From Sneathiella sedimenti (GTDB lineage: Bacteria > Pseudomonadota > Alphaproteobacteria > Sneathiellales > Sneathiellaceae): a DNA stretch of 64,000 bases. Position numbers and translations under genes: made by a program. This document shows, in pieces, positions 522-34,444 of the stretch. The notes under the pieces were generated by a model that was not told where the DNA came from, ran no database searches, and saw only the letters and a program-made list of their open reading frames with translations. Position 1 is the stretch's first letter, and each line of letters opens with the position of its first letter. The DNA lies in NCBI RefSeq assembly GCF_017313765.1, contig NZ_JAFLNC010000002.1, positions 372,001 to 436,000 on the forward strand. The letters are read 5' to 3'.

Positions 522-1511
522 TTAGGCGCCGCCCTGCTGTAGTTTATCCTTCTCGCGGGTAACGGCATTTACCGCATCGCGATAGAGAAGGAAGGGGATA
601 ACGCCGAATACGGCCGTGAGCAGAGTCAATGTTCGCATCAGCAGGAAGACGGAGCTATAGGCCGTGTTTGTGGCTTGATCCTCCAGCAGATGGGCGATCT
701 GACCAAATGCAGCCTCGCCGATGCCCAGGCCGCCGGGGGAAATGGGAATGGCGTTGGCGAACAGGCCGGCGACACCGGATACAATATAGCCGATCCAGGA
801 AAGACCCGTGATGTCCATAGCGCCGCCCAGCAAATGCAAGGATTCGAGGACCAGTACATACTGGAAGACGGAGAGTGCGACCGCCGCAACAAGATCCATT
901 TTGCGGTTCCAGTATTTTTCAAGCGCACCAACGACAGTTTTGAAAATCCGCATCAGAATCCGTTCCACCGGCCCCGGCATGAGGCGTATCAGGGAAATAA
1001 ATATTCCCTGGAATTTTACGGCGGCAACCAGGCCAAAAAAAGCGAGGGCCAGACCGGTAACGACAATAACCCCGATCCAGAACTGAAATTGTGATGGGAT
1101 CAGCGCCAGTACCGCGAGTGAAATGACGAGGAGGCCGACAAGGCCGGTCAAGCGATCGACAAGGCTGCTCATCATGATCGCACCGAGCTTGTCCTTGTGC
1201 AGACGATAGGCGAGGCCACCGCGCACGAAATCCCCGCCATAGGCCCCGGGCAGGAAGACGTTAAAAAACTGGCCAATAAAAGTGAAGTTCAGGGATTGCA
1301 GATAGCCGATTTCGGCGTGCAGGGCGCGCATCAGGATCTGCCACCTAAGCGCGCCGATAAAGACAGTAATAAGCAGGCAGGCAAACGCGAAGAGAACCAC
1401 CCCAGGTGCAGAGAGCGCGTTGGCTAGCAGACTAAAATCGATAAAATCGAAATGGATCAGGGCGATAATGCAGCCAATTCCAATGACGACTTTGAGAATT
1501 GTAAAAATCAA
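522..1511 (-). CDS. Flippase-like membrane protein (UPF0104 / LPG synthase TM family)
   Basis: A 329-residue polytopic protein with about eight membrane helices, matching the length and pattern of the lysylphosphatidylglycerol synthase transmembrane family (flippase-like domain, relatives of AglD). Recognisable features are the early GALRWQ stretch, the FNVFLPGAYGGDFVRG segment near residue 90 and the GGLGIGEAAFG motif near residue 260. Members are often found with polysaccharide or lipid-linked sugar genes, where they are thought to move or modify polyprenyl-linked sugars. The start is a TTG at 1511 preceded by a GGAAAGGA ribosome binding site. It lies 33 bases after the E1 beta-like gene and appears to be part of the same operon. 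The substrate is unknown. Confidence 0.75.
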   Translation of the reverse strand: MIFTILKVVIGIGCIIALIHFDFIDFSLLANALSAPGVVLFAFACLLITVFIGALRWQILMRALHAEIGYLQSLNFTFIGQFFNVFLPGAYGGDFVRGGLAYRLHKDKLGAIMMSSLVDRLTGLVGLLVISLAVLALIPSQFQFWIGVIVVTGLALAFFGLVAAVKFQGIFISLIRLMPGPVERILMRIFKTVVGALEKYWNRKMDLVAAVALSVFQYVLVLESLHLLGGAMDITGLSWIGYIVSGVAGLFANAIPISPGGLGIGEAAFGQIAHLLEDQATNTAYSSVFLLMRTLTLLTAVFGVIPFLLYRDAVNAVTREKDKLQQGGA

Positions 1512-1544: not shown

Positions 1545-2594
1545 TTAAAACGGGCCGGTAAACCAGTTTCCCGGTACGTCGTGGGCGGCCCCCCGGGCAT
1601 TTAAAATCGGCTCGATCGACACATCCCGATCCGTCATGTCCCCAATTCTGGCCGCGATATGCTCGGCCCGTATATGGTAGTCTTTTGTCAGCGCCGGACT
1701 GGTCGACTCCGAATAATCCGGTGCCGTTAAGCGAGCAGGGGGGAGCGTCAGGTCCCTGAAGCAGGTCTCCGTGATATGCGCCATGATTTCGGCCGCAATG
1801 CCGAAGCTCTTGAAACCCGTGTCCAGCACCAACAGCTTACCTGTCTTCTTCACTGATTTCTCGATCTTCGGCCAATCGATGGGCGAAATGCTTCTCAGGT
1901 CAATCAGGTCGCAGGAAATGCCTTGCTCTTTCAAGACATCGACGGCATGCAGCGCCTCAATCGTCATGTAGGAGACGGAGACAACGGTCACAGCGTCTCC
2001 TTCCCGCAGAAGGTTAGCCTCGCCGAGCGGAATAGGCTTGTTGGTATCGGCAGCTTCCGTCTGGGCGTTATGGAGCCAGCGATGCTCTAGGAAGATAACC
2101 GGGTTGGGATCGAATATGCTGGAAAGAAGCAAGCCCTTTGCGTCAGATGCGAGCGCCGGCATGACTACCTTCAATCCCGGAATATGGGCAAACCAGGATT
2201 GCAGGTTTTGGGAGTGGGTCGGACCCTGACCCCAGCCGCGCCCCAGGATCATCCGGATGGTGATCGGGACACTGCGCTTGCCGCCAAACATGAAATGCCA
2301 TTTGGCCGCATTATTGACCAGCTGGTCCATGGAAAGAAGCGCAAAATCGAGCCTTTGGTGGGTCAGAACAGGCTTGAAACCGCCGAGTGCGGCACCAATG
2401 GCAATGCCGGTCATGGCATTTTCTGAGGTTGGCATGTCAAAGACACGCTTTTCCCCGTACTTTTCCTGTAGATCCAGAGTTGTCCCGAAAACGCCTTTCG
2501 GGTCAGGAACACCAAGACCGAAGACAAGAACGCCGGGATCCTCGGCAAGCGCCTGATCCAATCCGTCACGAATTTCATTGGCAAAGCTGCGCAT
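1545..2594 (-). CDS. TPP-dependent dehydrogenase/transketolase-like beta subunit (E1 beta-like)
   Basis: A 349-residue homologue of pyruvate dehydrogenase E1 beta and the pyrimidine-binding half of transketolase. The N-terminal half has the cofactor-activating glutamate context TSENAMTGIAIGAAL near residue 60 and the segment RMILGRGWGQGPTHSQ near 114. The C-terminal half carries the transketolase C-domain fold with VVSVSYM and DLIDLRSISPID. It is separated from the alpha-like gene by only three bases, so the two should form an alpha2beta2 enzyme. No E2 lipoyl acyltransferase or E3 gene is nearby, which argues against a normal dehydrogenase complex. In a sugar cluster the pair may transfer a two-carbon unit to a keto sugar, as proposed for the AviB1/AviB2 pair of avilamycin synthesis. 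Confidence 0.85.
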   Translation of the reverse strand: MRSFANEIRDGLDQALAEDPGVLVFGLGVPDPKGVFGTTLDLQEKYGEKRVFDMPTSENAMTGIAIGAALGGFKPVLTHQRLDFALLSMDQLVNNAAKWHFMFGGKRSVPITIRMILGRGWGQGPTHSQNLQSWFAHIPGLKVVMPALASDAKGLLLSSIFDPNPVIFLEHRWLHNAQTEAADTNKPIPLGEANLLREGDAVTVVSVSYMTIEALHAVDVLKEQGISCDLIDLRSISPIDWPKIEKSVKKTGKLLVLDTGFKSFGIAAEIMAHITETCFRDLTLPPARLTAPDYSESTSPALTKDYHIRAEHIAARIGDMTDRDVSIEPILNARGAAHDVPGNWFTGPF

Positions 2595-2597
2595 AGT

Positions 2598-3587
2598 TTA
2601 GAGCGGGCCTCCCGTCATTTGGTCTGCGAAGACATGCATGTCAGCCTCTTCGGCGGGCGGAAATTCAGAAGATCGCGCAAAGTCAAAGGCGGCGTTCACT
2701 TCCGTATCAATTTCCTGTTGCATTGCGTCAATTTCGCCCTGAATTAATCGACCGTCAGCGAGGGCCTTGCCCTCAAAGAGCGAGATCGGATCACGTGCGG
2801 TCCATTCTTCTATCATCGGATCAGGGCGATAGCCGAGATCATCATCATAATTCGGCCCGCAATGTTCCCGCCAGCGGAAGGTCGAGAATTCAAGAAAGGC
2901 AGGTCCGCCGCCAGCCCGGATTTTCGTTATTGCATCAGACATGACTGCATGAACCGCTGCAACGTCATTACCGTCTCCCGATGCCGTATGAATACCGTAG
3001 CCGGCGATCTTCTCATGGATTTCCCGCGCTGTAGGCTGGCGGACTTCGAGCGGGGAATAGACGGAGTAGAAATTGTTTTCGCAGATAAACAGTACCGGCA
3101 GGTTTTTCAGGGTCGCAAAGTTGAGGGCCTCGTGAAACACGCCAGTCTCGACAACGGCATCACCCAGGAAAATACAGGCGATATCATCTCCGCCCTTTAT
3201 CATCAGGCTATAGCCGAGGCCAACCCCTACGGGCACCGTGCCGCCGACAATCGCTGTTGAGCCCATAAAACCAACGGCCTCGTCAATCAGATGCATGGAG
3301 CCGCCCTTGCCACGGGCGCAGCCGGTCACGCGGCCATAAATTTCGGCAATCATCGCGTTCAGGCTTCCGCCTTTTGCGAGATAATGCGCATGTGCCCGGT
3401 GACCGCTGACGGCAAGATCGCTGTGTCGCAGAAGCGCCCCAGCAGCGGCAGAGACAGCCTCTTGTCCACTGGAAAGATGGGTCGGGCAACGCATTTCCTG
3501 CTCGCTGTAGCGCGCGGCGATGGTTTCCTCAACAGTGCGGATACGGCGCATGCCATGGGCCAGTGATTTGGTCAGCTCTGGTGTCAT
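2598..3587 (-). CDS. TPP-dependent dehydrogenase-like alpha subunit (E1 alpha-like)
   Basis: A 329-residue protein of the E1 alpha family that binds thiamine pyrophosphate. The TPP/metal motif is visible as GDA at residues 142-144 followed by ENN at 170-172; most relatives have GDG. The segment GKGGSMH near residue 93 is also typical. The ATG at 3587 is chosen because it overlaps the stop of the methyltransferase gene as ATGA; a longer reading frame upstream would run into that gene. With the beta-like partner immediately downstream it should form a two-subunit TPP enzyme. Lack of E2/E3 genes and the carbohydrate neighbourhood suggest a carboligation or decarboxylation step on a sugar precursor rather than central metabolism. 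Confidence 0.85.
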   Translation of the reverse strand: MTPELTKSLAHGMRRIRTVEETIAARYSEQEMRCPTHLSSGQEAVSAAAGALLRHSDLAVSGHRAHAHYLAKGGSLNAMIAEIYGRVTGCARGKGGSMHLIDEAVGFMGSTAIVGGTVPVGVGLGYSLMIKGGDDIACIFLGDAVVETGVFHEALNFATLKNLPVLFICENNFYSVYSPLEVRQPTAREIHEKIAGYGIHTASGDGNDVAAVHAVMSDAITKIRAGGGPAFLEFSTFRWREHCGPNYDDDLGYRPDPMIEEWTARDPISLFEGKALADGRLIQGEIDAMQQEIDTEVNAAFDFARSSEFPPAEEADMHVFADQMTGGPL

Positions 3588-4243
3588 GGGATAAACCAGT
3601 AGTAGTCGCCTGTGTAGCCGATCTCTTTGAAAAAGGCCTTCCACCCATCGACATGGAGGATTGTCTTGGCTGTCAGGTTCCAGGCCTGCATGCGTTCATA
3701 TTCCTCATCCGTGCGATAGGCATCTACCGTGATGAAGGATTTACCGCGAGACACCCGCTCAATCTCCTGCAGGGCTTTTCCACAGTCCTCTTTTTCGAGA
3801 TTGTGAACCGTGTTGACGGAAACAACGACATCGAAGCTGTTATCCTCGAAGGGCAATTTCCGTGCGTCGGCGACGGATACGAAATCACGAACGCTCTCGA
3901 TGCTGTTCTCAATGGCATAGCCAGACACATCAATGCCGCGCACCGTAATGCCTGGGATGAGCGTCATCAGGTCATGAAGCATGAAACCCTTTGCGCAGCC
4001 CACATCCAGAAGGCTGGAAGAGCCCGTAAGGCCGAAATGTTCCTGAAAGGTCGGCACGACGGGCTGCCAGAACCGCGCATTATACGAAAAACCGCCGTAG
4101 CCGTGGCGCCTGTCTCCATCGAAAAAAGCCTTGCCGAACTGTCGGGCGATGGCGCGATCTTCTTCGGTCTTTTCATTTCCCCGCTGTGTTAAGTCCCGCT
4201 TTGTCTTCGGGTAATTTACCAGCAGATCGATTTCCTGTCCCAT
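3584..4243 (-). CDS. SAM-dependent class I methyltransferase
   Basis: A 219-residue protein with the class I methyltransferase fold. Motif I is LLDVGCAKGFMLHDL, followed by an acidic motif II position (RGIDVSGYAIE), then FEDNSFDVVVSVNTVHNLE as motif IV. It probably methylates a sugar hydroxyl, carbon or carboxyl group of the carbohydrate made by this operon. The stop overlaps the start of the E1 alpha-like gene by four bases, so translation is coupled. The upstream neighbour is the 4,6-dehydratase-like gene 40 bases away. The exact acceptor cannot be read from the sequence. Confidence 0.85.
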   Translation of the reverse strand: MGQEIDLLVNYPKTKRDLTQRGNEKTEEDRAIARQFGKAFFDGDRRHGYGGFSYNARFWQPVVPTFQEHFGLTGSSSLLDVGCAKGFMLHDLMTLIPGITVRGIDVSGYAIENSIESVRDFVSVADARKLPFEDNSFDVVVSVNTVHNLEKEDCGKALQEIERVSRGKSFITVDAYRTDEEYERMQAWNLTAKTILHVDGWKAFFKEIGYTGDYYWFIP

Positions 4244-4282: not shown

Positions 4283-5275
4283 TTACGGCTTATGAATATA
4301 GGATTGCGGCAGCTGTTTCAGTGCCTCAAGATTATTCCTGACCCACTCGACGGTCTCGGAAATTCCGTCGTCGAGCGAGATTTCGTCAGACCAGTTCAAG
4401 GAGTCACGAAGCTTGGAATCATCCAGACTATAGGTTTGGTCCTTGCCTTGGCGTTCGCCGACGACCTCGATCATGTCGGCCGGATCTACGCCGAGGGCAA
4501 CACAGATCTTTTCCACCAGATTGCGGATACTAATCAATTCAGGGGTGGAGATGTGGTAACACTCGCCTAGCTTTCCATTGAGGGCAATTTTTAGGGTCGC
4601 GCTTGAAACGTCATCGATATGAATAAAAGAGCGTTCCGAATGTCCGCCGCCATGAAGCTGAAGCTTCTGACCGGTGAGCGCATAAAGGATTGTGCGCGGA
4701 ATAATGCGATAGAGCTGCTGCCCGGGGCCATAAACATTGGCCGCCCGGGTATAGGTGACCGGAAAGTCGTAGGCCTTGAAAAAGCTGTTGAGGCTCATAT
4801 CCGCCGCCGCGCGGGAGACGGCATAAGGCGTGCTCGGGTTCAGGACGTGATCTTCCCTGACAAAGCCAGAGGTGCTGCCATACACCTCCGGTGTCGAGAT
4901 ATGAACATATTTTTCGAGGGTATCGAGTTTACGAAGGGCATCATGCAGCAATACGGTGGAAAGCGCGTTGGTACGGAACCAGTCCCCGGGATTTGCCCAG
5001 CTTTCTCCCACCATGCTTTGGGAGGCGAAATTCACCACATGGGAGATATCTTCCGCCACGACAAGGTCGACGATCTTTTCGAGATCGTTGTTCAGGTCAA
5101 GCTGGTGAAACTGGAAATTGTCTGCCTTACCGGACCATTTATAGGGAAGGAAGGCGTCATGGGGCTCGGCAGATCGGCTCGCGCCCTGCACGGTAAAACC
5201 GGATTTCAAGAGATGGGCGACGAAGCTTGCGCCGGAAAAGGAATTGCTGCCAAGGACAAGAAAATTCTGGGTCAT
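4283..5275 (-). CDS. NAD-dependent sugar epimerase/4,6-dehydratase-like SDR with altered catalytic motif
   Basis: A 330-residue extended short-chain dehydrogenase, the size and pattern of dTDP-glucose or GDP-mannose 4,6-dehydratases. The active-site triplet TPE (residues 128-130) precedes VYGS as in dehydratases, and the C-terminal half has the RSFIHIDDV substrate segment. Two motifs are unusual: the nucleotide loop is GSNSFSG (9-15) rather than GxxGxxG, and the catalytic YxxxK reads Y151-AVS-R155, with Arg in place of Lys (codon 4811-4813, CGC). It likely makes a 4-keto nucleotide sugar or epimerises one. The gene begins 104 bases after the nucleotidyltransferase stop. Confidence 0.8.
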   Translation of the reverse strand: MTQNFLVLGSNSFSGASFVAHLLKSGFTVQGASRSAEPHDAFLPYKWSGKADNFQFHQLDLNNDLEKIVDLVVAEDISHVVNFASQSMVGESWANPGDWFRTNALSTVLLHDALRKLDTLEKYVHISTPEVYGSTSGFVREDHVLNPSTPYAVSRAAADMSLNSFFKAYDFPVTYTRAANVYGPGQQLYRIIPRTILYALTGQKLQLHGGGHSERSFIHIDDVSSATLKIALNGKLGECYHISTPELISIRNLVEKICVALGVDPADMIEVVGERQGKDQTYSLDDSKLRDSLNWSDEISLDDGISETVEWVRNNLEALKQLPQSYIHKP

Positions 5276-5379: not shown

Positions 5380-6222
5380 CTATTTTTCCGTCATGAGTGT
5401 TATGGCCGCCGCATCAACCGACGTCGTCGCCAGGCATGCTTGGAATTGACGAAGACGCAATTGCCGGGTCTCCTCCATCGACCAATAGGAGGGCACCGCC
5501 GAGATAAGCGCCTGTGCCTGTGGCCTGTCGCGGATTTCCTTCTGTGCATCGGCAAGCGCCGTCACATTGCCGATATCCCGATGATACAGGTGATTGTGAA
5601 AGCTGTTCATATGACCAACGAAATGCGGCAGGATCTCAGTACTGAAATCCGTGATTTCCGGATCTGTCTTCAAGATCCTGTCTATTGCGGCGATATCCAT
5701 TATATAGACCGCGCCATTGGCTAACCGGCCGATATCCGTTTTTGGCTTCTCAACGAAATCGATGACCCGCTTTTCCTTATCAAGGGTTACGATGCCACAA
5801 CTTTGCGGGTCATCTGTCTCAAAGGTCATCATGGTGAGCGCGCAGTCTTTTGGTCGATTTTCAAAAGAACGTCGAAATTCCCTGACATCAAAGAGGGTGA
5901 GATTGTCTGCGTGCGCCATAAGCAACGCATTATCGGAATATTCCTTGCGGAATGTCTTCAGCGTACCTGCAGTCCCTAATAGTTCGGGTTCCTCGAGAAA
6001 CCGGACATGGCGTGCATAAGGGCTGGTTGAGACATACTCGCGGACGAGTGGTGCCAGATAATGAAGATTGATAAAAATTCGATCAATGCCACCGGAAATC
6101 AGCATCTCCAGCCAGAGTCCAAGCAAGGGACGTCCATGAATTGGCATCAGGCATTTCGGCAACTCCGATGTGAGCGGCTGCAATCGGGTGCCGAGTCCGG
6201 CGGCGAGTAATAGTGCCTCCAT
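5380..6222 (-). CDS. Sugar-phosphate nucleotidyltransferase (NDP-sugar pyrophosphorylase family)
   Basis: A 280-residue protein. The N-terminal LLLAAGLGTRLQPLT signature with PKCLMPI is the nucleotide-binding loop of sugar nucleotidyltransferases, and HADN near residue 103 is the metal-binding aspartate region. The family transfers a nucleotide to a sugar 1-phosphate. The pattern is closest to the mannose/heptose-1-phosphate guanylyltransferase branch (HddC-like) rather than RfbA, but the choice of NTP and sugar is uncertain. The last 50 residues lack the hexapeptide repeats of bifunctional enzymes. It sits 14 bases after the cytidylyltransferase-kinase fusion, and together they could turn a phosphosugar into an NDP-sugar for the dehydratase-like enzyme downstream. 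Confidence 0.8.
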   Translation of the reverse strand: MEALLLAAGLGTRLQPLTSELPKCLMPIHGRPLLGLWLEMLISGGIDRIFINLHYLAPLVREYVSTSPYARHVRFLEEPELLGTAGTLKTFRKEYSDNALLMAHADNLTLFDVREFRRSFENRPKDCALTMMTFETDDPQSCGIVTLDKEKRVIDFVEKPKTDIGRLANGAVYIMDIAAIDRILKTDPEITDFSTEILPHFVGHMNSFHNHLYHRDIGNVTALADAQKEIRDRPQAQALISAVPSYWSMEETRQLRLRQFQACLATTSVDAAAITLMTEK

Positions 6223-6236
6223 CCTCCCGCCTTCCG

Positions 6237-7733
6237 TTAGAGTACGCCGAGTTCGTGGCGGATTTCATCAACGCTGAGCGGACGGTTGCCGACCGTCGCC
6301 ACCTGACATCCCGACGCGACGGAGCCGATGTAGGCGGCTTCCCATATGGATGCGCCGCTGGCCAGCGCAAGCGAGGCGGAGACCAGCATGGCATCACCTG
6401 CACCCGCAGGGTCCTTTGGCGAGGAGCACAACGCCGGAAGACGGTCTGTCATCCATTTGCTGTTGTCCGGATGGGTCGTCTGAATCAGCGTTCCTTCCGC
6501 ACCGAGTGTGAGGAGAATATGCTCCGGCTGGCATTTGTGGGCAAGCGCCTCGGCGACGGCAACAAGCCCGATATCATGATCCTGTATGGCGAGCCGTGCC
6601 TCGATCTCGGTGGGTTTGAGCAGAAGCATCTTCTCAAAGCGGGCGATATTGCCGATCTGGGAGGAAGACTGGCTGTCGGCCACCATGGGAATTCGTTTCT
6701 CCAGGCAGTAGGCAGATATACGATTGACCAGGCTTTGCGGTAAAACCCCGTAATTGAAGTCAGAAAATATCAGCAGGTCCAGATTGCTTGCCATAGCCTT
6801 GAAGTGATCGAAAATCTGGTCTTGCAGAACCTGATCGATGGCGTGTTGTTTAAGCTTGGAAACACGGAGCAGTGTCTTACCGGCACTCCGGAACCGTTGC
6901 TTGAGTGTCGTTGTACGGCTTGGGTCGCGGGCGATTATGACATCGACGCCATAGTCTTCCAGCTTCTTCTGGCTGTCGGTTGCCTCATGATCGTCGCCGC
7001 AGACCGTGAGATAACTGGTTTTTGCCCCAAGCCCCTTTGCATGACTGGCGACGATTCCGGCTCCGCCGATAAATTTCTGCTCCAGCACCGGTGTGACAAC
7101 AACGGTTGGATCCTCGCGGGAGAGGCCGAGCACATCGCAGGTAATATATTCGTCAACAATCAGGTCGCCAATGACCAGCACACTCAAATCATTAAACCGG
7201 TCGAGAATGGCAGAGAAATCCTCTCCCTTTATATTGTGTCGATTCAAATAGTTAGCTGATGATTTTAAATTAAAGTTTGAGGTTGGTCGCTCACTCTCCG
7301 CTTGAATGAGGTCAATTGAGGAAAAGACTGCATCACCGGCGCTGAAGAGGAGCTTGCCGCCATAAACCGCCAACGCATCACGCTCCGGATTATGAAATTC
7401 CTGATGTTCTTTGCCCTTTACGACGAGGTCCGGGCGGATCGCATCAATGGCCGTCGCAAGGTCATCTTCAATTATAAAGGAATAGTCGACATAGCTGATT
7501 GCGGCAATATTCTCGAGCCGGAGATGCGCCGGCACCAAGACGCCCAGCCTGTCGTCCGCATTCACGGCGACCACAAGGATGTCACAACAATCTGCCGCGA
7601 ATTTTAACAGCCGGAGATGTCCCGGATGGACAACATTGAAATTGCCGCTGACCATGCCGACTTTGCTGTTTGAACCATGTTCTGCGCGTAATGCGGCGAT
7701 CCGGGAGGCGTGGTCATTCAGGCTTGCTGTCAT
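6237..7733 (-). CDS. Bifunctional nucleotidyltransferase-PfkB sugar kinase, HldE-like with swapped domains
   Basis: A 498-residue two-domain protein. Residues about 24-145 form a cytidylyltransferase domain with GNFNVVHPGH (HxGH at 36-39) and VKGKEH. Residues about 184-498 form a PfkB/ribokinase-type kinase with GGAG near 223 and the ATP/catalytic motif DPAGAGD at 441-447. HldE of E. coli makes ADP-heptose with the same two activities but has the kinase first. Here the nucleotidyltransferase comes first. The ATG at 7733 fits the one-base gap after the alcohol dehydrogenase; a longer frame would overlap that gene by about 90 bases. It probably phosphorylates and/or activates a heptose-like sugar. 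Confidence 0.85.
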   Translation of the reverse strand: MTASLNDHASRIAALRAEHGSNSKVGMVSGNFNVVHPGHLRLLKFAADCCDILVVAVNADDRLGVLVPAHLRLENIAAISYVDYSFIIEDDLATAIDAIRPDLVVKGKEHQEFHNPERDALAVYGGKLLFSAGDAVFSSIDLIQAESERPTSNFNLKSSANYLNRHNIKGEDFSAILDRFNDLSVLVIGDLIVDEYITCDVLGLSREDPTVVVTPVLEQKFIGGAGIVASHAKGLGAKTSYLTVCGDDHEATDSQKKLEDYGVDVIIARDPSRTTTLKQRFRSAGKTLLRVSKLKQHAIDQVLQDQIFDHFKAMASNLDLLIFSDFNYGVLPQSLVNRISAYCLEKRIPMVADSQSSSQIGNIARFEKMLLLKPTEIEARLAIQDHDIGLVAVAEALAHKCQPEHILLTLGAEGTLIQTTHPDNSKWMTDRLPALCSSPKDPAGAGDAMLVSASLALASGASIWEAAYIGSVASGCQVATVGNRPLSVDEIRHELGVL

Positions 7734-7734
7734 C

Positions 7735-8784
7735 TTATTCCCCAAGGGATGGATTGATTTCCAATAGGGGGCGCATGACGCGGCCTGCCTCCAAGTCATC
7801 CAATGCGACATTGACATTGTCAAGGCTGTAGCGCTTGGTAATCATATTGTTGAGTGGCAGATTCTGATCTACCGCCATTTGGTAAAAGCGCGGAACGTCC
7901 TGGTCGGGCCGGGTTCCGCCGCCCCAGCTGCCCTGAATCTGCTTGCCATTGACCAATTCGAACGGATCTATGGAAATTTTCTGGCCAGCTGCGGGGTGAG
8001 AGGCAAAAACGCAGCGGCCGCCATTGCGCCGCACAGCATTGAAAGCAAGCTCGATAGTTGCCGTATGTCCCGCAGCATCGAGAGCGTAGTCCGCCCCTGT
8101 TGAATCGGTCAGCGCCATGACTTGTTCCAGGATATCGGAATCGCTGCCGTTGAGCGCATGTGTCGCGCCGAGCTTTAGCGCGGCCTCGCGTTTTTCCTCT
8201 TTCACGTCGATAGCGATCAGCTTTTTTGGCCTGTGGCAGCGGGCGTACATGAGTGCTATGGCGCCAATACCGCCAATGCCAATGACCACAACCGTATCGT
8301 CCGGTGAAATGTCAATCTCGTTGAGCGCCAGACCGGCGCCCGTCGGAATCGCACAGCCGAATAGCACGCCGAGATCCATGGAGAGGCCTTTCGGAAGGGG
8401 AGTGATCCGATTCTCCGCGATAATGGCGCGTTCATTGAAGGTGGTGATGCCGCCGGAATTGATGACCTGACCGCGCCAGTTATACAGGGCGCCCGGCGCG
8501 TCCATTCCCGTTCCGCGAATCCAGCCGAGAATGACCTTGTCACCGATCGCTACTTTGCTGACACCGTTTCCCGTTGCCCGAACAATGCCGGTGGCTTCAT
8601 GCCCGAGCAGGTGAGGCAGATATCTGTCTTCCCCGCGTTTGCCGCGGACTTCCATAAGCTGGCTGTGGCAGACCCCGCTATAGGCAATCTCGACTTCAAC
8701 CTGACCGGGGAGGGGAGCGGGGATATCAATTCCGTCGATTAAACGCAAGGGTTTTCCGGTTTCGAAAAGAACAGCGGCCTTCAT
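7735..8784 (-). CDS. Zinc-dependent alcohol dehydrogenase (MDR superfamily)
   Basis: A 349-residue medium-chain dehydrogenase. The catalytic zinc ligands are present: Cys39 (GVCHSQ), His62-Glu63 (GHEATG) and Cys144 (FGCAIPTG). The NAD(P) loop GIGGIG is at 169-174. The four-cysteine structural zinc loop of classical alcohol dehydrogenases is absent; the corresponding segment around residues 87-105 has no cysteines. It is the first gene of the minus-strand carbohydrate operon, so a role in oxidising or reducing a sugar or small aldehyde precursor is likely. The substrate is unknown. The start at 8784 faces a divergent intergenic region shared with the lipoprotein gene. Confidence 0.85.
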   Translation of the reverse strand: MKAAVLFETGKPLRLIDGIDIPAPLPGQVEVEIAYSGVCHSQLMEVRGKRGEDRYLPHLLGHEATGIVRATGNGVSKVAIGDKVILGWIRGTGMDAPGALYNWRGQVINSGGITTFNERAIIAENRITPLPKGLSMDLGVLFGCAIPTGAGLALNEIDISPDDTVVVIGIGGIGAIALMYARCHRPKKLIAIDVKEEKREAALKLGATHALNGSDSDILEQVMALTDSTGADYALDAAGHTATIELAFNAVRRNGGRCVFASHPAAGQKISIDPFELVNGKQIQGSWGGGTRPDQDVPRFYQMAVDQNLPLNNMITKRYSLDNVNVALDDLEAGRVMRPLLEINPSLGE

Positions 8785-8913: not shown

Positions 8914-9027
8914 AAAGTCAGTTTCGCTCTGGCAATTAAATCGCAGTGATTGTAAATCTTTAAGGAACCGGAATGCCCGGCCGGAGAATCGGGCAATGAG
9001 TTTGTAGTCTTTGGAAGGACGAGTGTG

Positions 9028-9435
9028 ATGAAACAATTTTTCTATCTGGCGATGGTCGCGACCTTGGCCCTGTTTATCAGCGCCTGTGATACCCGTTTGC
9101 AGCCGGTTTACAACGCAGAATCGATCGCGATACCGGTAAAATTGCAGGAAGGTCCCATTGGCAATATTGAGGCAATTATCAAAACCGCCGCGATTAACCG
9201 TGGTTGGAGCGTGTCGGACGCCGGTCCGGGCGTAATCAAGGCGACGTTGAAAAACCGCACCCATGTAGCTGTTGTCGATATTCGTTATACCAAAGAGAGT
9301 TATTCAATTAACTACGTCTCCAGCGTGGACCTTTTGTATAATGGGGAGAAAATTCATCGGAACTACAATAAATGGATTCGTACCCTAGAAAATGATATCA
9401 ACAAGAGCCTGAACGTCGCCGCCCTTAAAGCTTAA
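9028..9435 (+). CDS. Small lipoprotein, paralogue of the N-terminus of the lipoprotein at 61232-62554
   Basis: A 135-residue predicted lipoprotein with a signal peptide ending in the lipobox FISAC (Cys20). The mature part starts with TRLQPVYN and contains a compact domain of about 105 residues with VDIRY, SYSINYVSSV and IHRNYNKWIR. The same sequence pattern, including a lipidated Cys20, forms the N-terminus of the large lipoprotein at 61232-62554, so the two are paralogues. The ATG at 9028 follows GGAAGGA at good spacing; the GTG three bases earlier is less likely. It ends ten bases before apeC and may be the first gene of the APE transcript. The domain is not one I can name. Localisation in the outer membrane is likely. 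Confidence 0.8.
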   Translation: MKQFFYLAMVATLALFISACDTRLQPVYNAESIAIPVKLQEGPIGNIEAIIKTAAINRGWSVSDAGPGVIKATLKNRTHVAVVDIRYTKESYSINYVSSVDLLYNGEKIHRNYNKWIRTLENDINKSLNVAALKA

Positions 9436-9445
9436 GGTTGTTTTG

Positions 9446-10180
9446 ATGGAAACGGGAATTTCATTTTCGGTTCGGCAATGGTCTGCCTGGGCGCCGTCAC
9501 TTGATAGTCCAGAGGCATGGCGTCTCTGGGCTGACGGGGACACAGATATTCCCAAAGGGGAGGCAGTACCGGATGTGCGGGACCTGCCGGCAGGACAGCG
9601 CCGGCGCCTTTCCCGGCTGGGTAAAATTGCCCTTCGGGTCGCTATGGATGTCGAGGCCGAAGAAACTCCCCGCGTCGTTTTCAGTTCCCGCAATGGCAAT
9701 GTCACGGAGATGCTGTCGTTGCTGAAAAGCCTTGCGGTGGAGGACCCAGTCTCTCCCACCGGATTTGGCATGTCAGTGCATAATTCCCTCGCCGGAATGC
9801 TGTCCATCGTCAGCAAAAACCGAGAGTCGCATACGGCGATTGCCGCCGGCGGGGAAAGCCTGTGCCTGGGACTGATAGAGGCGATTACCTCTTTGAAGGA
9901 AGACCCGACTTCGCCGGTATTGCTGTTGCATGCCGATGAGACGCTTCCTGATTTCTACGCACCGTTTCAGGAGACGGATATGCCCGTTTGCGCCCTGGCG
10001 CTGCTTGTCGGAGGAGCGAAGCCTGGGGAAGAGGCGTACTCGCTCGGGTTTTCCGGGATCCAGACACGGGTTAAAAAGGGAGATCCATTGAAGAGCTTTA
10101 TCCGGTTTTTGCTGCGAGGGGACGCTGACTGGAACTGGTCTGGTGCGGAAGGCGATTGGTGGTGCAGACGTCATGCTTGA
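9446..10180 (+). CDS. apeC: APE chain-length factor (truncated ketosynthase-like)
   Basis: A 244-residue protein with only the N-terminal part of a beta-ketoacyl synthase fold. Where ketosynthases have the active-site cysteine (pattern TACTSS), this protein reads AIAAGGES (GGE at 135-137), so it cannot form an acyl-cysteine. In aryl polyene systems such a subunit (ApeC) pairs with the active ketosynthase ApeO as a chain-length factor. It is the first core gene of the cluster, and the next gene begins within its last eight bases. Names of ape genes here follow the gene order of the enterobacterial and Xenorhabdus clusters as I remember them. Confidence 0.82.
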   Translation: METGISFSVRQWSAWAPSLDSPEAWRLWADGDTDIPKGEAVPDVRDLPAGQRRRLSRLGKIALRVAMDVEAEETPRVVFSSRNGNVTEMLSLLKSLAVEDPVSPTGFGMSVHNSLAGMLSIVSKNRESHTAIAAGGESLCLGLIEAITSLKEDPTSPVLLLHADETLPDFYAPFQETDMPVCALALLVGGAKPGEEAYSLGFSGIQTRVKKGDPLKSFIRFLLRGDADWNWSGAEGDWWCRRHA

Positions 10181-10946
10181 ACGGATGAATTATGTCTGGC
10201 GGTTGATCGGGACGGGGCTCGCGTTTACCTTTTTCGGTCTCGGCGGCATATTTATGACCGTTTTTGTCTTTACGTCCATTGCTCTCTTTACCAGAGATGA
10301 AACAACCCGTATCCGGCGGGTGAGAAAAACCATCTATTATGCCTTCCGTGTTTTTGTCTATCTGCTGCGGGTTGGCGGTATTATCGATTCCCGATTTCAC
10401 GATACGGAAAGGCTGCAAAACGTCCGGGGCGCCCTTATTGTCGCCAATCATCCCTCCCTGCTGGATACGGTCTTTCTCATGTCCCGGATGCCGGATGTCC
10501 AATGTATCGTCAAGCATGAGTTATGGGACAACATCTACCTTGGCGGTGTAATGCGTGCGGCGGGTTATATCCGCAATGATGGTGATGCGGAAAAGATGAT
10601 GGCCCAATGCGAGAAGACATTGAAAAATGGGCAAAATATTCTGGTTTTCCCGGAAGGGACCCGCTCGGTACCGGGGCAGGCGCTTAAATTCCAGCGGGGG
10701 TTCGCGAATATCGCGATGCATTTCAGCGCCCCGATCCAGCTCGTTACCATAATCTGCAAGCCGTCAACCTTAACGAAAGGAAGTCCATGGTACGCTATCC
10801 CGTCGCGCCAGGCCCGCTTTGATATAACCTTTAACGAACAACTGGACATGGCCGATTATCTGAGGCATGAACCGAGATCATTGAAAGTACGCAAGCTGAC
10901 GCGCGAGCTGGAGCAGTATTATATTGGAAAACTCTGCAATGAATGA
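10173..10946 (+). CDS. apeD: APE-cluster PlsC-type acyltransferase
   Basis: A 257-residue membrane-associated 1-acylglycerol-3-phosphate acyltransferase family protein. A hydrophobic segment occupies about residues 9-40, the catalytic HxxxxD motif is HPSLLD near residue 103, and the substrate motif FPEGTRS lies near 168. It probably transfers an acyl or polyene chain to the lipid anchor. The ATG at 10173 overlaps the apeC stop by eight bases; an ATG at 10185 is an alternative. The stop overlaps the first ACP start. Position second in the canonical APE order supports the role. Confidence 0.85.
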   Translation: MLERMNYVWRLIGTGLAFTFFGLGGIFMTVFVFTSIALFTRDETTRIRRVRKTIYYAFRVFVYLLRVGGIIDSRFHDTERLQNVRGALIVANHPSLLDTVFLMSRMPDVQCIVKHELWDNIYLGGVMRAAGYIRNDGDAEKMMAQCEKTLKNGQNILVFPEGTRSVPGQALKFQRGFANIAMHFSAPIQLVTIICKPSTLTKGSPWYAIPSRQARFDITFNEQLDMADYLRHEPRSLKVRKLTRELEQYYIGKLCNE

Positions 10947-11208
10947 TTTTGAATTGGAAATTAAGAAGCTGGTGGTCAAGACCCTGAACCTCGAGGATAT
11001 CACACCCGAGGAGATTGACAGTGAAGAGCGCCTGTTCGTTGATGGGTTGGGCCTTGATTCGATCGACGCACTTGAACTTGGTGTCGCTATTCAGAAAACC
11101 TACGGCATTAAAATTAACGCCAAAAATGATGATTTGAAGGAGCATTTCGCTTCCGTGCGCAGTCTCGCCCGCTTCATTACATCCGAAAGGAAGGAACTGG
11201 GGGCATGA
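10939..11208 (+). CDS. apeE: APE acyl carrier protein 1
   Basis: An 89-residue acyl carrier protein. The phosphopantetheine attachment serine is in GLDSIDALEL near residue 43, followed by the acidic helix expected of ACPs. The ATG at 10939 overlaps the acyltransferase stop, and its own stop overlaps the next ACP start as ATGA. In characterised APE systems two ACPs carry the aryl starter and the growing polyene. It needs activation by a phosphopantetheinyl transferase, and none is encoded in the window. Confidence 0.92.
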   Translation: MNDFELEIKKLVVKTLNLEDITPEEIDSEERLFVDGLGLDSIDALELGVAIQKTYGIKINAKNDDLKEHFASVRSLARFITSERKELGA

Positions 11209-11450
11209 CCCGCGACGAGATTTACGAAAAACTCCGCGAATATCTGGAAGATATGTTCGAGGTGCCGCCGGAACTGATTACCGAGGATGCCCAGCTTTAT
11301 GAAGACCTGGATCTGGACAGCATTGACGCGGTGGATCTGGTGGTCAAGCTGCAGGATCTGACGGGGAAGAAAATCCCGCCGGACGAGTTTCGGACAGTAC
11401 GCTCCGTGGGTGATGTGGTGGACCGGGTTCATGCCCTCTTGGCGGCGTAA
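11205..11450 (+). CDS. apeF: APE acyl carrier protein 2
   Basis: An 81-residue acyl carrier protein with the attachment serine in LDLDSIDAVDL near residue 37. It is a distinct sequence from the first ACP, sharing mainly the DSIDA core, so the pair probably has divided roles (starter loading and chain extension). Start codon ATG at 11205 overlaps the upstream stop by four bases. The membrane protein gene downstream starts inside its last 20 bases, in a different frame. Confidence 0.92.
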   Translation: MTRDEIYEKLREYLEDMFEVPPELITEDAQLYEDLDLDSIDAVDLVVKLQDLTGKKIPPDEFRTVRSVGDVVDRVHALLAA

Positions 11451-12009
11451 AACAAGACCGCTGGACCTACTGCTCGTCCTGATCAGTATTGCCTACCCCT
11501 TCATCGTCTATTTCGGGCTGATGAAATTCTCTCCTTTGGTTGTCGGGTTGGCGCTTGTCGCTTTCTTGATCCTGCGTCTATTGTTGCACAGGAGACGGCA
11601 CCCGCGTAAGTCGGAATTCTGGATTTATCTGGCCGTTCTGGGCGCGGTTGCGGCCCTGTTGGCGATCAATGAAATGTTGGCGATCAAGGCCTATCCGGTA
11701 CTGATCAGCCTTTCATTCGCGGCCGTCTTTGGGTATTCCCTGATCTATCCGCCGCCAATCATTGAACGGATTGCGCGAATGATGGAGGGCGAGCTCGATC
11801 CACAGGCTCTATGCTATACACGCCACGTAACGGAAGCCTGGGTCATATTCTTCCTGGTAAATGCTTCCATCTCGCTGTGGACCGCACTCTATGCCGACCT
11901 CGCTACATGGACGCTTTATAACGGGTTTATTTCCTACCTGTTGATTGGACTGATGTTTGGAGGCGAGTATCTCCTCCGTCGCCTCGTCAAACGTAAAAAA
12001 GTGAGTTGA
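11431..12009 (+). CDS. apeG: APE-cluster membrane protein (COG4648 family)
   Basis: A 192-residue protein with about six membrane helices, matching the uncharacterised COG4648 membrane proteins that accompany APE clusters. Conserved landmarks are YPPPIIERIARMMEG near residue 107, ALCYTRHVT and AWVIFFLVN. Its role is not established; assembly or anchoring of the pigment at the inner membrane is the usual guess. The ATG at 11431 overlaps the second ACP gene by 20 bases. The stop is followed after three bases by the AMP ligase. Confidence 0.8.
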   Translation: MPSWRRKTRPLDLLLVLISIAYPFIVYFGLMKFSPLVVGLALVAFLILRLLLHRRRHPRKSEFWIYLAVLGAVAALLAINEMLAIKAYPVLISLSFAAVFGYSLIYPPPIIERIARMMEGELDPQALCYTRHVTEAWVIFFLVNASISLWTALYADLATWTLYNGFISYLLIGLMFGGEYLLRRLVKRKKVS

Positions 12010-12012
12010 CCG

Positions 12013-13377
12013 TTGTTTATCCCGTTTTCGAAGTTGTTATCCTCTGATCGTGACGGCGAAACGCCCGTCGCACAAACCTCCTCAGGACTGAAAACATTTG
12101 ACGATTTGCGCCGTGAAACTGCAGATCTTTACGTCCGGTTAAAGGAACAGAATATCCGCGAGGTGGTCCTCGCCTCGACAAGCAGTTATGCCTTCGCCAC
12201 GGGATTTCTGGCCGCGCTGCACGCGGATTGTCATATTATCGTGCCGCCCAATGCCCTGCCGGGAATGCTGGCACATTTCGTGGGCAGAGACTGTCCATTG
12301 CTCTCCGATATCGAGGGGGCAGGAGGCGCTTACCAGTTCCTGATTGATGGATCAATCGGAAGGGCTGTTGACTTCTCGGACCTTGATCCCGCTCGCGCAT
12401 GTCTCGATTTTTATACCTCCGGCTCCACCGGCGCGCCAAAACGGGTCCCCAAGAAACTGTCTCAGGTCGAGAATGAGTTACTTGTCCTTGATCAGCGATG
12501 GGGAGGCGCGCTTCAAGGGTCCGCAACACTTGGTACCGTCAGCCACCAGCATATATTCGGGCTCTATTTCAAGCTCCTGCTCCCGTTGTGCGAGGGGCGT
12601 CTGTTCTTCCCGGATACGTTCGAGATTTGGGAGGAATTGCTCGCGGCGGCACCTCCCGGCGCCTGCTTGGTGTCGAGCCCCGCACATCTGACGCGAATAC
12701 CGCCGTTCGATCCATTGCCGGATGCGGAAAAATCGCCGGTAATCTTCACAGCTGGCGGACCGCTGCCATTTGAGGCTGCACAGGATGCGCGCGCGAAATT
12801 CGGGCCGTTGCCGACGGAAGTTTTCGGCAGTACGGAGACCGGCGGTATCGCATCTCGACAGCAGAAAGATCCGCGCACGCCGTTTACACCACTTCCTGGT
12901 ATGCAGACCCGGATCGATGGGCAAGGGCTGCTCAGTGTAAAATCGAACTACACTGATGATGAAGACTGGGATGCTACCAACGATATCGTTGAACTGCTTG
13001 AAGACAGCAGCTTTATACTGGCTGGGCGCGCCAACCAGTTCGTCAAGATAGAAGGCAAGCGCATTTCGCTTGCCGAGGTGGAAAAATACCTGACCCGGTC
13101 AGAATTTGTGACGGATAGCGCGGTGTTTATCCTCAAGGACGGGAAGGAAACTCTAGTCGCTGTCGTTGAGTTGAGTGTGTCCGGCTGGCAAACGCATCAG
13201 GAAATCGGAGCCTTTCGCCTGAGCCGGGCCCTTCGGCGCGAACTTTCTCCAAACCTCGAGAATGCGGCGCTGCCGCGACGCTGGCGCTTTGTGAAACGAT
13301 TGCCTGTTAATGCACAAGGCAAGCGTCAGCAGGCGGCAATGAACGAACTATTTGCCGGTCCCGGCGGGGCGAACTAG
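12013..13377 (+). CDS. apeH: Aryl-acid AMP ligase / acyl-ACP synthetase
   Basis: A 454-residue member of the ANL adenylating family. The ATP loop is YTSGSTGAPKRVPKK near residue 136 and the FGSTETGG motif lies near 271. A C-terminal domain with GRANQFVKIEGKRISLAEVE and the final lysine in NAQGKRQ is present. ApeH activates an aryl carboxylic acid (4-hydroxybenzoate in Xenorhabdus) and loads it on an ACP as the starter of the polyene. Start is TTG at 12013. No gene that makes 4-hydroxybenzoate lies in the window, so the starter must come from elsewhere or be different. Confidence 0.88.
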   Translation: MFIPFSKLLSSDRDGETPVAQTSSGLKTFDDLRRETADLYVRLKEQNIREVVLASTSSYAFATGFLAALHADCHIIVPPNALPGMLAHFVGRDCPLLSDIEGAGGAYQFLIDGSIGRAVDFSDLDPARACLDFYTSGSTGAPKRVPKKLSQVENELLVLDQRWGGALQGSATLGTVSHQHIFGLYFKLLLPLCEGRLFFPDTFEIWEELLAAAPPGACLVSSPAHLTRIPPFDPLPDAEKSPVIFTAGGPLPFEAAQDARAKFGPLPTEVFGSTETGGIASRQQKDPRTPFTPLPGMQTRIDGQGLLSVKSNYTDDEDWDATNDIVELLEDSSFILAGRANQFVKIEGKRISLAEVEKYLTRSEFVTDSAVFILKDGKETLVAVVELSVSGWQTHQEIGAFRLSRALRRELSPNLENAALPRRWRFVKRLPVNAQGKRQQAAMNELFAGPGGAN

Positions 13378-13380
13378 ACT

Positions 13381-13770
13381 GTGCCGATCATGACTGTACA
13401 TTCCGAAACAAAATGGTCCGACGGCCGCAATTTCCCTGAAATTCGTGCAGAGCGGCGAGACGGCAATATCATTGAGTTCGACCTGTTTGTGGGCGCGAAT
13501 CTATTCCAGTTCCAGGGCCATTTTCCGAACGAGCCGGTGCTGCCCGGGGTTGCCCAGATTGATTGGGCGGCACGGCTTGGGCAACAGCATTTCGGGATTA
13601 ATGGGCCGATTGCGCGTTTGGGCCAGCTTAAGTTTTCGCGGCTTGTCGGGGCAGACAGTCTTCTCCACCTCCGTCTGGAATGGAACAACGAAAAGCAGCG
13701 TCTTCTCTTCTCCTATCGGGAAGGGGATGAAACCTGCTCTTCGGGTTATTTTGAACTGTCGACGCAATGA
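13381..13770 (+). CDS. apeI: APE 3-hydroxyacyl-ACP dehydratase, His-bearing subunit
   Basis: A 129-residue hotdog-fold protein of the FabZ/FabA type. The catalytic histidine is in GHFPNEPVLPGVAQIDWAAR; the helix position normally Glu in FabZ is Asp here. ApeI and ApeP act as a heterodimeric dehydratase in studied APE systems, and this pair fits: ApeI keeps the GHFP histidine while ApeP lacks it. The start is GTG at 13381 or ATG at 13390. The stop overlaps the next start as ATGA. Confidence 0.85.
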   Translation: MPIMTVHSETKWSDGRNFPEIRAERRDGNIIEFDLFVGANLFQFQGHFPNEPVLPGVAQIDWAARLGQQHFGINGPIARLGQLKFSRLVGADSLLHLRLEWNNEKQRLLFSYREGDETCSSGYFELSTQ

Positions 13771-15467
13771 GTTTTTCTCTCGCGGCCATTGTGCCGAGCT
13801 ATAATCATTATCGTCATATCGGCAGGGTGATTGAGGCCCTGCAGGCGCAGAGTCTTCGCATTTTCATCATCGACGACGGCAGTCAGGAGCCGGCGAAATC
13901 TGCGCTCGAAAAATTTCATGATCCGGCGCGGGGTGTTACCCTCCATAGTCAGCCTGAAAATGGCGGAAAAGGTGCCGCTGTGATGGCGGGATTTAATCTT
14001 GCCGCGGCCGAGGGCTTTACTCACGCCCTGCAGATCGATGCAGATGGGCAGCATGACATTGACGCCCTGCCGGCCCTCATCCAGCTTGCGACAGTCCATC
14101 CCGACTCGCTCATCAGCGGCCAGCCGATCTATGACGAGACAATCCCCGCATCCCGGAAGTTTGCCCGCTGGATTACGCATATCTGGGTCTGGATCGAGAC
14201 GCTTTCGACGACCATCACGGACAGTATGTGCGGATATCGTATTTATCCGCTGGCCGCTGCGACCGAGGTTATCAATCGTGAACAAGTCGGGCATTATATG
14301 GACTTCGATACGGAGATCATGGTGCGGATGAACTGGCGCGGCACCCCGGTCCGGATGCTGCCGATCCATGTAACCTATCCCGAGGACAATATTTCCAATT
14401 TTCGTCTCGGGGCAGATAACTGGCTGATCACCAAGATGCATACGCGGCTTGTGTTCGGCATGCTCTGGAGATTACCGGAGATTCTACGCAACCGACGACG
14501 TGGTCCGAAGGAGCCGCGCCATTGGGGCCGAGTTAATGAGCGGGGCGCCACACTCGGCCTGAAATTACTCTTTGCGTTTTATCGTATAGCTGGTCGACGG
14601 TTTTGCTGGTATGCGATGCAGCCCGTGCTGCTGTATTTTTTTGTGACCAGCCGGGAACAGCGGAACGCTTCCCGCATTTACTGGCGGCGTCTATTTGCCA
14701 CGCGAGGGAAAGCGGAGGAGCCAAGCCTGCATCAACTCTGGCGGCATTATCGCTCCTTCGGGTCAATGGCACTCGATAAGCTGGCGGCCTGGCTCGGCGA
14801 TATTCGCAGCACCGATATTTTGGACGATAATCTGGGCGAACTCGACAGGCTGGCAGTGCGTAAACCCGGCATCCTTGTGGTGACGTCGCATTTAGGCAAT
14901 GTGGATATCCTGCGCGCGGTCGGCGCTGCACGCGGGATTGATAATATTACCGTTTTTGCCCATACGCGTAACGCCGTCCGGTTTAATCACATCCTCAGTA
15001 AGGCTAATCCGGCAGCGACCGTCGATATCATGGAGGTTCAGGATATTGGCCCCGCTACATTGATCGAGCTTGAAGAGAAATTGGCGGCCGGTAACTGGAT
15101 AGTCATTGCCGGCGACCGGATACCGCTGGAAGGCGGCAAACGCATCCGCAATCTGGATTTTCTGGGGGCACCGGCCCCTTTTTCGGAGGGGGCGTGGATT
15201 ATTGCCGCCTTGCTGGGCTGTCCGGTTTATGGGCTTCATTGTCTTCGGGATGGAAAGAAGTACCGCATCCTGTTTGAGAAGATTACCGATCGTGTCATTC
15301 GGCGGCGGGCGCCAAATGACGGTCTGGAGGCACCGATGACGGAATATGCGCGGATCTTGCAGGAAAATTGCCAAGAATATCCGGAACAATGGTACAATTT
15401 CTATGACTTCTGGGCCATTCCGAAGCAACAAATTGAAACAGATAAGAATCTCAAGGAAACAATATGA
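13767..15467 (+). CDS. apeJ: Glycosyltransferase 2 - LpxL-like acyltransferase fusion
   Basis: A 566-residue two-domain protein. Residues about 1-235 are a family 2 glycosyltransferase (VPSYNHYRHIG, IIDDGS, DADGQHD). Residues about 270-560 resemble lipid A lauroyl-type acyltransferases, with the HxxxxD motif as HLGNVD near residue 375. In APE clusters this protein is thought to join the polyene to a glycolipid anchor in the membrane. Translation is coupled at both ends by ATGA overlaps with apeI and apeK. The fusion is normal for the family. Confidence 0.87.
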   Translation: MSFSLAAIVPSYNHYRHIGRVIEALQAQSLRIFIIDDGSQEPAKSALEKFHDPARGVTLHSQPENGGKGAAVMAGFNLAAAEGFTHALQIDADGQHDIDALPALIQLATVHPDSLISGQPIYDETIPASRKFARWITHIWVWIETLSTTITDSMCGYRIYPLAAATEVINREQVGHYMDFDTEIMVRMNWRGTPVRMLPIHVTYPEDNISNFRLGADNWLITKMHTRLVFGMLWRLPEILRNRRRGPKEPRHWGRVNERGATLGLKLLFAFYRIAGRRFCWYAMQPVLLYFFVTSREQRNASRIYWRRLFATRGKAEEPSLHQLWRHYRSFGSMALDKLAAWLGDIRSTDILDDNLGELDRLAVRKPGILVVTSHLGNVDILRAVGAARGIDNITVFAHTRNAVRFNHILSKANPAATVDIMEVQDIGPATLIELEEKLAAGNWIVIAGDRIPLEGGKRIRNLDFLGAPAPFSEGAWIIAALLGCPVYGLHCLRDGKKYRILFEKITDRVIRRRAPNDGLEAPMTEYARILQENCQEYPEQWYNFYDFWAIPKQQIETDKNLKETI

Positions 15468-15874
15468 TATCCGCAGATATTATCCTGAAATGTCAATTTT
15501 ATGATCTCGATCCGATGGGGATTGTCTGGCATGGAAATTATGCGCGGTATTTCGAGCAGGCACGCTGCGCGCTTCTGGACAAACTGGATTACAATTATGT
15601 GCAGATGAGTGAAAGCGGCTTTGCCTGGCCAATTGTCGATATGCGCATCAAATATATCCGTCCCATCCGCTTCGGCCAGGAAGTGCGGGTGGCGGCTGAT
15701 CTCGCTGAATATGAAAACCGTCTCAAAATCAACTACGAGATTACAGACCTGCTTACAGGAGAGAGGTTGACCCGGGGATTTACAATTCAGGTGGCGATTG
15801 ATAAGAACTCGGAGGAAATGTTGTTCCAGTCACCGCCAATTCTGTATCAAAAAGTTGACGCTCTGTTGTGTTAA
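15464..15874 (+). CDS. apeK: APE-cluster 4HBT thioesterase
   Basis: A 136-residue hotdog thioesterase. The active-site region YDLDPMGIVWHGNYARYFEQAR near residue 13 matches 4-hydroxybenzoyl-CoA thioesterase and YbgC families, with the catalytic Asp before PMGIV. It may release or proofread ACP-bound chains in aryl polyene synthesis. It overlaps apeJ by four bases and apeL by seven. A second protein of the same superfamily lies at 60768-61202 in an unrelated operon. Confidence 0.85.
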   Translation: MISADIILKCQFYDLDPMGIVWHGNYARYFEQARCALLDKLDYNYVQMSESGFAWPIVDMRIKYIRPIRFGQEVRVAADLAEYENRLKINYEITDLLTGERLTRGFTIQVAIDKNSEEMLFQSPPILYQKVDALLC

Positions 15875-18797: not shown

Positions 18798-18798
18798 C

Positions 18799-22122: not shown

Positions 22123-22141
22123 AAATTTCGCGTGAGAATGA

Positions 22142-34412: not shown

Positions 34413-34444
34413 GAATGGTATTGAACTACTAGGATTTGAGTTAC

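Follow-up and report, generated by a model that had tools for sequence, protein, structure and literature searches.

What does a protein do that carries the two domains of HldE in the opposite order, in a bacterium that also has an ordinary HldE? The question is raised by an open reading frame (ORF) on the reverse strand of a 64,000-nucleotide stretch of Sneathiella sedimenti DNA (assembly GCF_017313765.1, contig NZ_JAFLNC010000002.1, positions 372,001 to 436,000), which we call the window and to which all coordinates refer unless another record is named. The nearest models and structures, with the same two domains, are those of HldE (RfaE; heptose 7-phosphate kinase / heptose 1-phosphate adenylyltransferase) and of the split pair HldA and HldC. 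The protein and its halves are as follows.

6237..7733, reverse strand: swapped HldE-like protein, nucleotidyltransferase (NT) half then PfkB kinase half, 498 amino acids (aa)
7284..7676, reverse strand: NT half, aa 20-150, cytidylyltransferase-like (PF01467; nearest structure HldC, 5xf2)
6246..7193, reverse strand: PfkB kinase half, aa 181-496 (PF00294; nearest structure HldA, 4e8y)

Domain order and the canonical HldE

The reading frame is open from an ATG start and gives a 498-aa product. The Pfam matches are CTP_transf_like (PF01467; aa 28-109, E 3.3e-11) and PfkB (PF00294; aa 185-484, E 1.7e-21), each above its gathering score, which bears out the first-pass annotation that the nucleotidyltransferase comes first and the kinase second; in HldE the kinase half comes first. 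Translation, domains and related loci rule out a chance or mis-called frame. Among NCBIfam models the two halves of HldE match best, in reversed order and far under their equivalog cut-offs: the kinase half scores 186.1 bits against TIGR02198 (cut-off 345) and the NT half 60.2 bits against TIGR02199 (cut-off 181.5), and the whole protein reaches 142.7 of 521 bits against NF008454 (HldE). An AlphaFold2 model of the full protein, built from 29 close sequences (mean predicted local distance difference test score, pLDDT, 83.5), has HldA (4e8y) as its best solved match (E 7.3e-24), with the next kind of kinase about seven orders weaker. For a separate model of the NT half (pLDDT 88.0), a Z-score comparison that covers Foldseek's top 1000 puts HldC of Burkholderia pseudomallei first (5xf2; Z 18.1, root mean square deviation 2.1, 127 residues) and the Fom1 cytidylyltransferase domain second (Z 16.8). 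HldC also ranked first in two further structure searches.

The genome (8 contigs, completeness 100) has its own HldE, a kinase-NT protein of 491 aa (L002, 1447-2922) directly after a GmhA gene. Among 20 genomes with close relatives of the swapped protein (that of locus L019 left aside), a separate TIGR02198 kinase of the HldE/HldA type is above the cut-off in 19 and reaches 308 of 345 bits in the other one. The TIGR02199 domain of HldE/HldC is over the cut-off in 17 of these genomes and just short of it in an eighteenth (179 of 181.5 bits); in the remaining two the model matched only the swapped protein, weakly. Since canonical HldE co-occurs in nearly all of the sampled genomes, the swapped protein is no general stand-in for it, and we conclude that it is an additional enzyme beside the ordinary HldE.

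Distribution and phylogeny

A search for related loci found 35 relatives (45-84% identity), a set that favours close relatives because the search was seeded on query peptides. Their record labels name Alpha-, Beta-, Gamma- and Deltaproteobacteria, Nitrospirae, Acidobacteria, Chloroflexi, Chlorobium and Omnitrophota, among others. NT-kinase matches spanning both domains occur in at least 42 of the 289 genomes of the class, the window's included, and 40 of them are 26-35% identical. The domain layout is NT-kinase in 76 proteins and kinase-NT in 22 fused HldE controls; these rows were chosen by the span of the match, so that the layout shows the wide existence of the NT-kinase order and not its frequency. 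A swap unique to this genome is thus refuted by relatives in the same order. The close family of the window's protein is rare: at E 1e-100 it was found in two of 398 genomes from the phylum, one being the window's own. Two of the four genomes of the genus have it: the congener G168 retains the cluster with identical gene order, and G041 and G265 gave canonical-type matches only, with no swapped protein seen. This patchy distribution suggests transfer or loss. Base composition gave no signal of recent transfer (GC 0.541 in the gene, 0.537 in the window).

Trees of the separate halves were quick trees without bootstrap, with a long-branch warning from the program. The 148 input sequences were reduced to 132 (near-copies and L131 removed), giving 119 kinase halves and 116 NT halves. 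In the kinase-half tree (76 swapped, 27 HldE and 16 HldA rows) the swapped proteins are split from HldE/HldA at a Shimodaira-Hasegawa-like approximate likelihood ratio of 100, and the close family, the divergent locus L045 included, is a group at 100. In the NT-half tree (76 swapped, 27 HldE and 13 HldC rows) the split from the canonical proteins has 99.9 and the close family 82. Neither half therefore groups with HldE, HldA or HldC. A further tree of 60 rows (58 drawn at random after removal of three long branches and, as outgroup, two more PfkB kinases from this genome) places a swapped clade (88) beside an HldE/HldA clade (90). The joint grouping of the two clades of other alphaproteobacterial swapped proteins has a support of 0 there, and this tree does not settle the order of the three swapped clades.

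The reversed order thus marks an old, scattered family in many phyla and is no one-off. The genome's swapped protein and its HldE fall in different deep groups, which rejects a recent shuffling of its own HldE. The trees fit one old origin of the swapped order. The separate fusion that the first-pass annotation had proposed fits them too, but they do not tell it from a permutation of one old fusion. In the open-licence PubMed Central literature searched, no title or start of an abstract describes a swapped or unusual HldE. No characterised HldE in the NT-kinase order was found, and the annotation had taken such an order, were it common, as evidence against itself. The subfamily is real and conserved and, within the literature searched, uncharacterised.

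Conserved and lost residues

7617..7628, reverse strand: HxGH motif, aa 36-39, present in 32 of 32 close-family rows
7518..7556, reverse strand: loop aa 60-72, site of the missing KG segment and lysine of HldE/HldC (alignment)
6393..6404, reverse strand: GAGD motif of the kinase, aa 444-447 (alignment)

In alignments the kinase half retains D194, G223-G224, K278, R280, R290, D325 and the GAGD motif. Several positions fixed in HldE/HldA are differently fixed in the close family; numbered as in this genome's HldE, the changes are R37 to G, N61 to I, N65 to H, K163 to Y, PK189-190 to SQ and N206 to T; the DPK of HldE/HldA is DSQ here. With the canonical HldE present, the scores under cut-off and these substrate-site positions changed, a substrate other than that of ADP-heptose synthesis, as first suggested, is probable.

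The NT half retains G30, F32, H36, G38, H39, R72, K106, G107 and S138 in the alignment, and R41 is invariant (29/29 rows). The segment carrying the first KG motif is absent from the close family; its lysine is present in all 40 HldE/HldC rows, in 43 of the 44 other swapped rows and in none of the 32 close-family rows, all of which also have FN in place of FD. Four of these 32 rows were left out of alignments A1 and A2 (L024, which holds unreadable letters, L030, L043, which is the window itself, and L044). The first-pass annotation had held both catalytic motifs to be intact. HxGH and GAGD are indeed present, as in HldE, but no close-family row has the KG-motif lysine or the FD aspartate, and the loss of essential residues from one domain, which would have told against the annotation, is thus seen in part, in the NT half.

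According to the available part of PMC7993394, docking of BpHldC linked TNG, NSD, KG (Lys69), EXTP and KGG to substrate binding, with Lys69 at the nucleotide phosphate. In the close family the columns TN, NSD, first KG and EXTP are changed or deleted and the second KG is kept. The flexible lysine K663 of Plasmodium CCT is reported as required, K663A being practically inactive (PMC6060094, from the portion available); we infer that K663 is the equivalent of the KG lysine. A motif of heptose nucleotidyltransferases, (F/L)xxGxSTT (PMC11461863, a commentary, available in part), was found in none of the 32 close-family rows, an absence that counts little because the version of the pattern used (last T or S) recovers only 22 of 40 controls.

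Gene neighbourhood

7735..8784, reverse strand: zinc alcohol dehydrogenase, upstream neighbour (PF08240/PF00107; recurrent neighbour)
5380..6222, reverse strand: NTP_transferase, next gene downstream, linked to the close family (PF00483; nearest PDB entry 6jq8)
4283..5275, reverse strand: RmlB-like NAD-dependent dehydratase (PF16363/PF01370; TIGR01181, 202 of 365 bits)
3584..4243, reverse strand: methyltransferase (PF08241)
2598..3644, reverse strand: E1 alpha-like thiamine-diphosphate subunit (PF00676)
1545..2594, reverse strand: E1 beta-like thiamine-diphosphate subunit (PF02779/PF02780)
522..1511, reverse strand: flippase-like membrane protein (PF03706, TIGR00374)

One base separates the alcohol dehydrogenase gene from the swapped gene. 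On the other side, a PF00483-type NTP_transferase follows the close-family gene in all 32 loci with at least 500 bp of room (the window itself included; five further loci end within 193 bp), and the gap between aligned ends is at most 42 bp in 31 of them and 838 bp in L019. Among the other swapped loci, 25 leave 1.4 kb or more after the gene (L065 leaves none); in none of them does an NTP_transferase lie directly downstream, and a scan by motif found none there either. The very divergent alphaproteobacterial member L045 (also L168, genome G259; 33% identity) has lost the lysine, has FN and has the NTP_transferase. The nearest PDB entry to the window's NTP_transferase, 6jq8, is a protein of the 6-deoxy-D-manno-heptose pathway; we take the structures of this pathway near it to be HddC. 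Against the HddC model NF049965 the protein reaches 67.5 of 300 bits, under the cut-off.

Within 9 kb at 34 loci, many cut by contig ends (and with the neighbours of L093-L109 left aside), the recurrent neighbours are a thiamine-diphosphate C-half (18 loci), a methyltransferase (14), zinc alcohol dehydrogenase (13), a transketolase N-half (9), an APH-like kinase, an epimerase and an RmlB-like dehydratase (8 each), a GmhA-like isomerase (7) and E1 alpha (6). Where the window has E1 alpha/beta, L017, L024, L033 and L037 (also L026 and L029) have a split transketolase, a HAD-like protein (F15), which gave no Pfam match and no NCBIfam name, and an APH-like kinase (F6), which matches APH in Pfam and has no NCBIfam name. 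To the left of the window, record L006 holds a GmhA-like isomerase (13243-13815, reverse strand), an epimerase, an SDR protein, an acetolactate-synthase-like enzyme and a presumably FkbM-like gene. The nearest PDB structures to this isomerase are phosphoheptose isomerases; it reaches 115 of 209 bits against TIGR00441, for which the genome's canonical GmhA also falls short (193). Compared with canonical GmhA, it keeps the first and last His of what we take to be the metal site, with Glu replaced by Asp and Gln by Glu (two of four). The only GHMP kinase match (PF00288) in the genome is presumably IspE-like by its motif, so that there is no HddA candidate, and one GmhB-like match lies elsewhere in the genome (85.5 of 149.6 bits).

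Proposed function and alternatives

We propose, with a probability of roughly 0.45, that the protein is a sugar-1-kinase of a heptose-like surface-sugar pathway in which nucleotidyl transfer has passed to the neighbouring NTP_transferase. The GmhA-like isomerase of the cluster would deliver a sugar phosphate, heptose or a near relative, and the PfkB half would most likely phosphorylate its anomeric carbon. The NT half has kept its fold and HxGH and, because the KG-motif lysine and the FD aspartate are absent, most likely no longer carries out normal nucleotidyl transfer. After a presumed phosphatase step, this transfer would fall to the separate NTP_transferase that accompanies the family. The RmlB-like dehydratase, epimerase, methyltransferase and thiamine-diphosphate enzymes may next act on the resulting nucleoside diphosphate sugar, the end product being a modified, possibly branched sugar of a surface polysaccharide. 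In support of this proposal are the kinase fold nearest to HldA, GAGD, the canonical HldE, the loss of lysine and FD, the linkage to NTP_transferase, the GmhA-like isomerase and the lack of an HddA candidate. The swapped protein works like part of an HldE-type pathway, yet it departs from HldE in several of the features tested. Distinctly more doubtful is a fuller version, a hybrid route of scattered bacteria in which a GmhA-like isomerase, a PfkB kinase preceded in the fusion by an NT half that is decommissioned, hydrolytic or regulatory, an RmlA/HddC-like NTP_transferase and thiamine-diphosphate enzymes would lead to an undescribed branched higher sugar.

Several observations weigh against the proposed hand-over. 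Some lysine lies near the lost segment in six of the 32 close-family rows, at differing positions. Most of the evidence that lysine loss goes with NTP_transferase comes from a single clade, and in G379, a genome found later and outside the sample, which also lacks the KG lysine, the only NTP_transferase homologue (E 1e-10) lies about 2.7 kb upstream in the same cluster and is not the next gene; strict adjacency therefore fails and the association with the cluster holds. The NTP_transferase scores mannose-type or archaeal GlmU-type models above HddC, all under cut-off, and the GmhA-like gene is present in only seven of the 34 neighbourhoods, many of them cut short. Purifying selection acts as strongly on the NT half as on the kinase half (nonsynonymous divergence, dN, between the window and L008 is 0.112 and 0.103, respectively, with synonymous sites saturated), and the NT half keeps HxGH, as would suit an active enzyme. 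The similar dN indicates that the NT half is conserved for some purpose and leaves room for an altered active enzyme; it argues against a mere relic that drifts freely.

The strongest alternative, which we hold possible and on balance unlikely, is that both halves are active with a changed substrate or nucleotide, other residues replacing the lysine and the NTP_transferase serving another sugar of the same polysaccharide. The retention of HxGH, R72, the second KG and S138, the invariant R41, the dN values and a fold close to HldC and the Fom1 domain are all consistent with this. Against it stand the loss of the lysine, of the FD aspartate and of three of the five substrate motifs given for BpHldC in the available text, and the strict linkage of the family to another nucleotidyltransferase. 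It is less likely again that the kinase acts on a non-heptose sugar or polyol phosphate, the GmhA-like and HddC-like neighbours having drifted likewise. The positions fixed anew in the kinase (I, H, G and Y for N61, N65, R37 and K163, and DSQ for DPK) and the low score and altered metal site of the GmhA-like protein point this way, but in the PDB the closest entries to that protein remain phosphoheptose isomerases, and those to the NTP_transferase are proteins of the 6-deoxy-heptose pathway. That the swapped protein is a spare HldE, an ordinary ADP-heptose synthase whose domains were shuffled, is very improbable: its nearest named models and structures are indeed HldE, HldA and HldC, but both equivalog scores are under cut-off, the canonical enzyme is also present, the separation is deep in both trees, and the KG lysine and kinase pocket positions are changed.

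Other features of the window

On the forward strand, 9443-24099 has the look of an aryl-polyene-type biosynthetic cluster; from the translations we take it to hold two acyl-carrier-like ORFs, an AMP-ligase-like ORF, a glycosyltransferase/acyltransferase, a large exporter, a flavin adenine dinucleotide (FAD) oxidoreductase and two ketosynthase-like ORFs. The ORFs 9025-9435 (forward strand) and 61232-62554 (reverse strand), possible lipoproteins, resemble each other where the mature part begins (R-[LI]-QPVYN), one being short and the other longer C-terminally. The ORF at 34436-35881 (forward strand) has what we take to be a SEFIR/TIR-type look and may be a signalling or defence protein, and 58845-60757 (forward strand) presumably holds ORFs like RmlB and RmlD and would be the window's second sugar-nucleotide locus.

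Relation to known systems

The GmhA-like isomerase in the cluster recalls the setting of HldE; the reversed order, the separate clade of each half, the loss of the KG lysine and FD aspartate, the changed kinase pocket and the canonical HldE alongside set the protein apart from it. The GDP-heptose route of capsules and O-antigens (GmhA, HddA, GmhB, HddC) is alike in a GmhA-like isomerase, a heptose-pathway-like NTP_transferase and an RmlB/GDP-mannose-dehydratase-like gene in the cluster, but its kinase is of the GHMP type (HddA), unlike the PfkB/HldE type here, and the HddC model is matched weakly. The other swapped proteins of Alphaproteobacteria, annotated 'PfkB family carbohydrate kinase' where they are on plasmids, have the same order and group with the window's family in both trees, but are 26-35% identical to the window's protein, keep the KG lysine and FD and have no NTP_transferase directly downstream. 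In the part of PMC4753412 available, E1-type pairs are proposed to attach two-carbon branches to the sugars of avilamycin and paulomycin (AviB1/AviB2, Pau11/Pau12); these pairs and YerE of yersiniose are likewise thiamine-diphosphate enzymes inside deoxysugar clusters. By analogy of cluster context, and not by sequence, the E1 alpha/beta and acetolactate-synthase-like genes may resemble such branched-sugar enzymes.

ADP-heptose is described as an innate immune agonist (PMC11461863, in the part available). Swapped proteins can be mistaken for HldE/RfaE, and hence for evidence of ADP-heptose, and the family should probably not be counted so. It also provides a defined set of genes (for isomerase, swapped kinase, NTP_transferase, dehydratase and thiamine-diphosphate enzyme) whose product is testable in vitro, and a natural case in which a probably catalytic lysine of the cytidylyltransferase fold has been lost with the domain still under selection.
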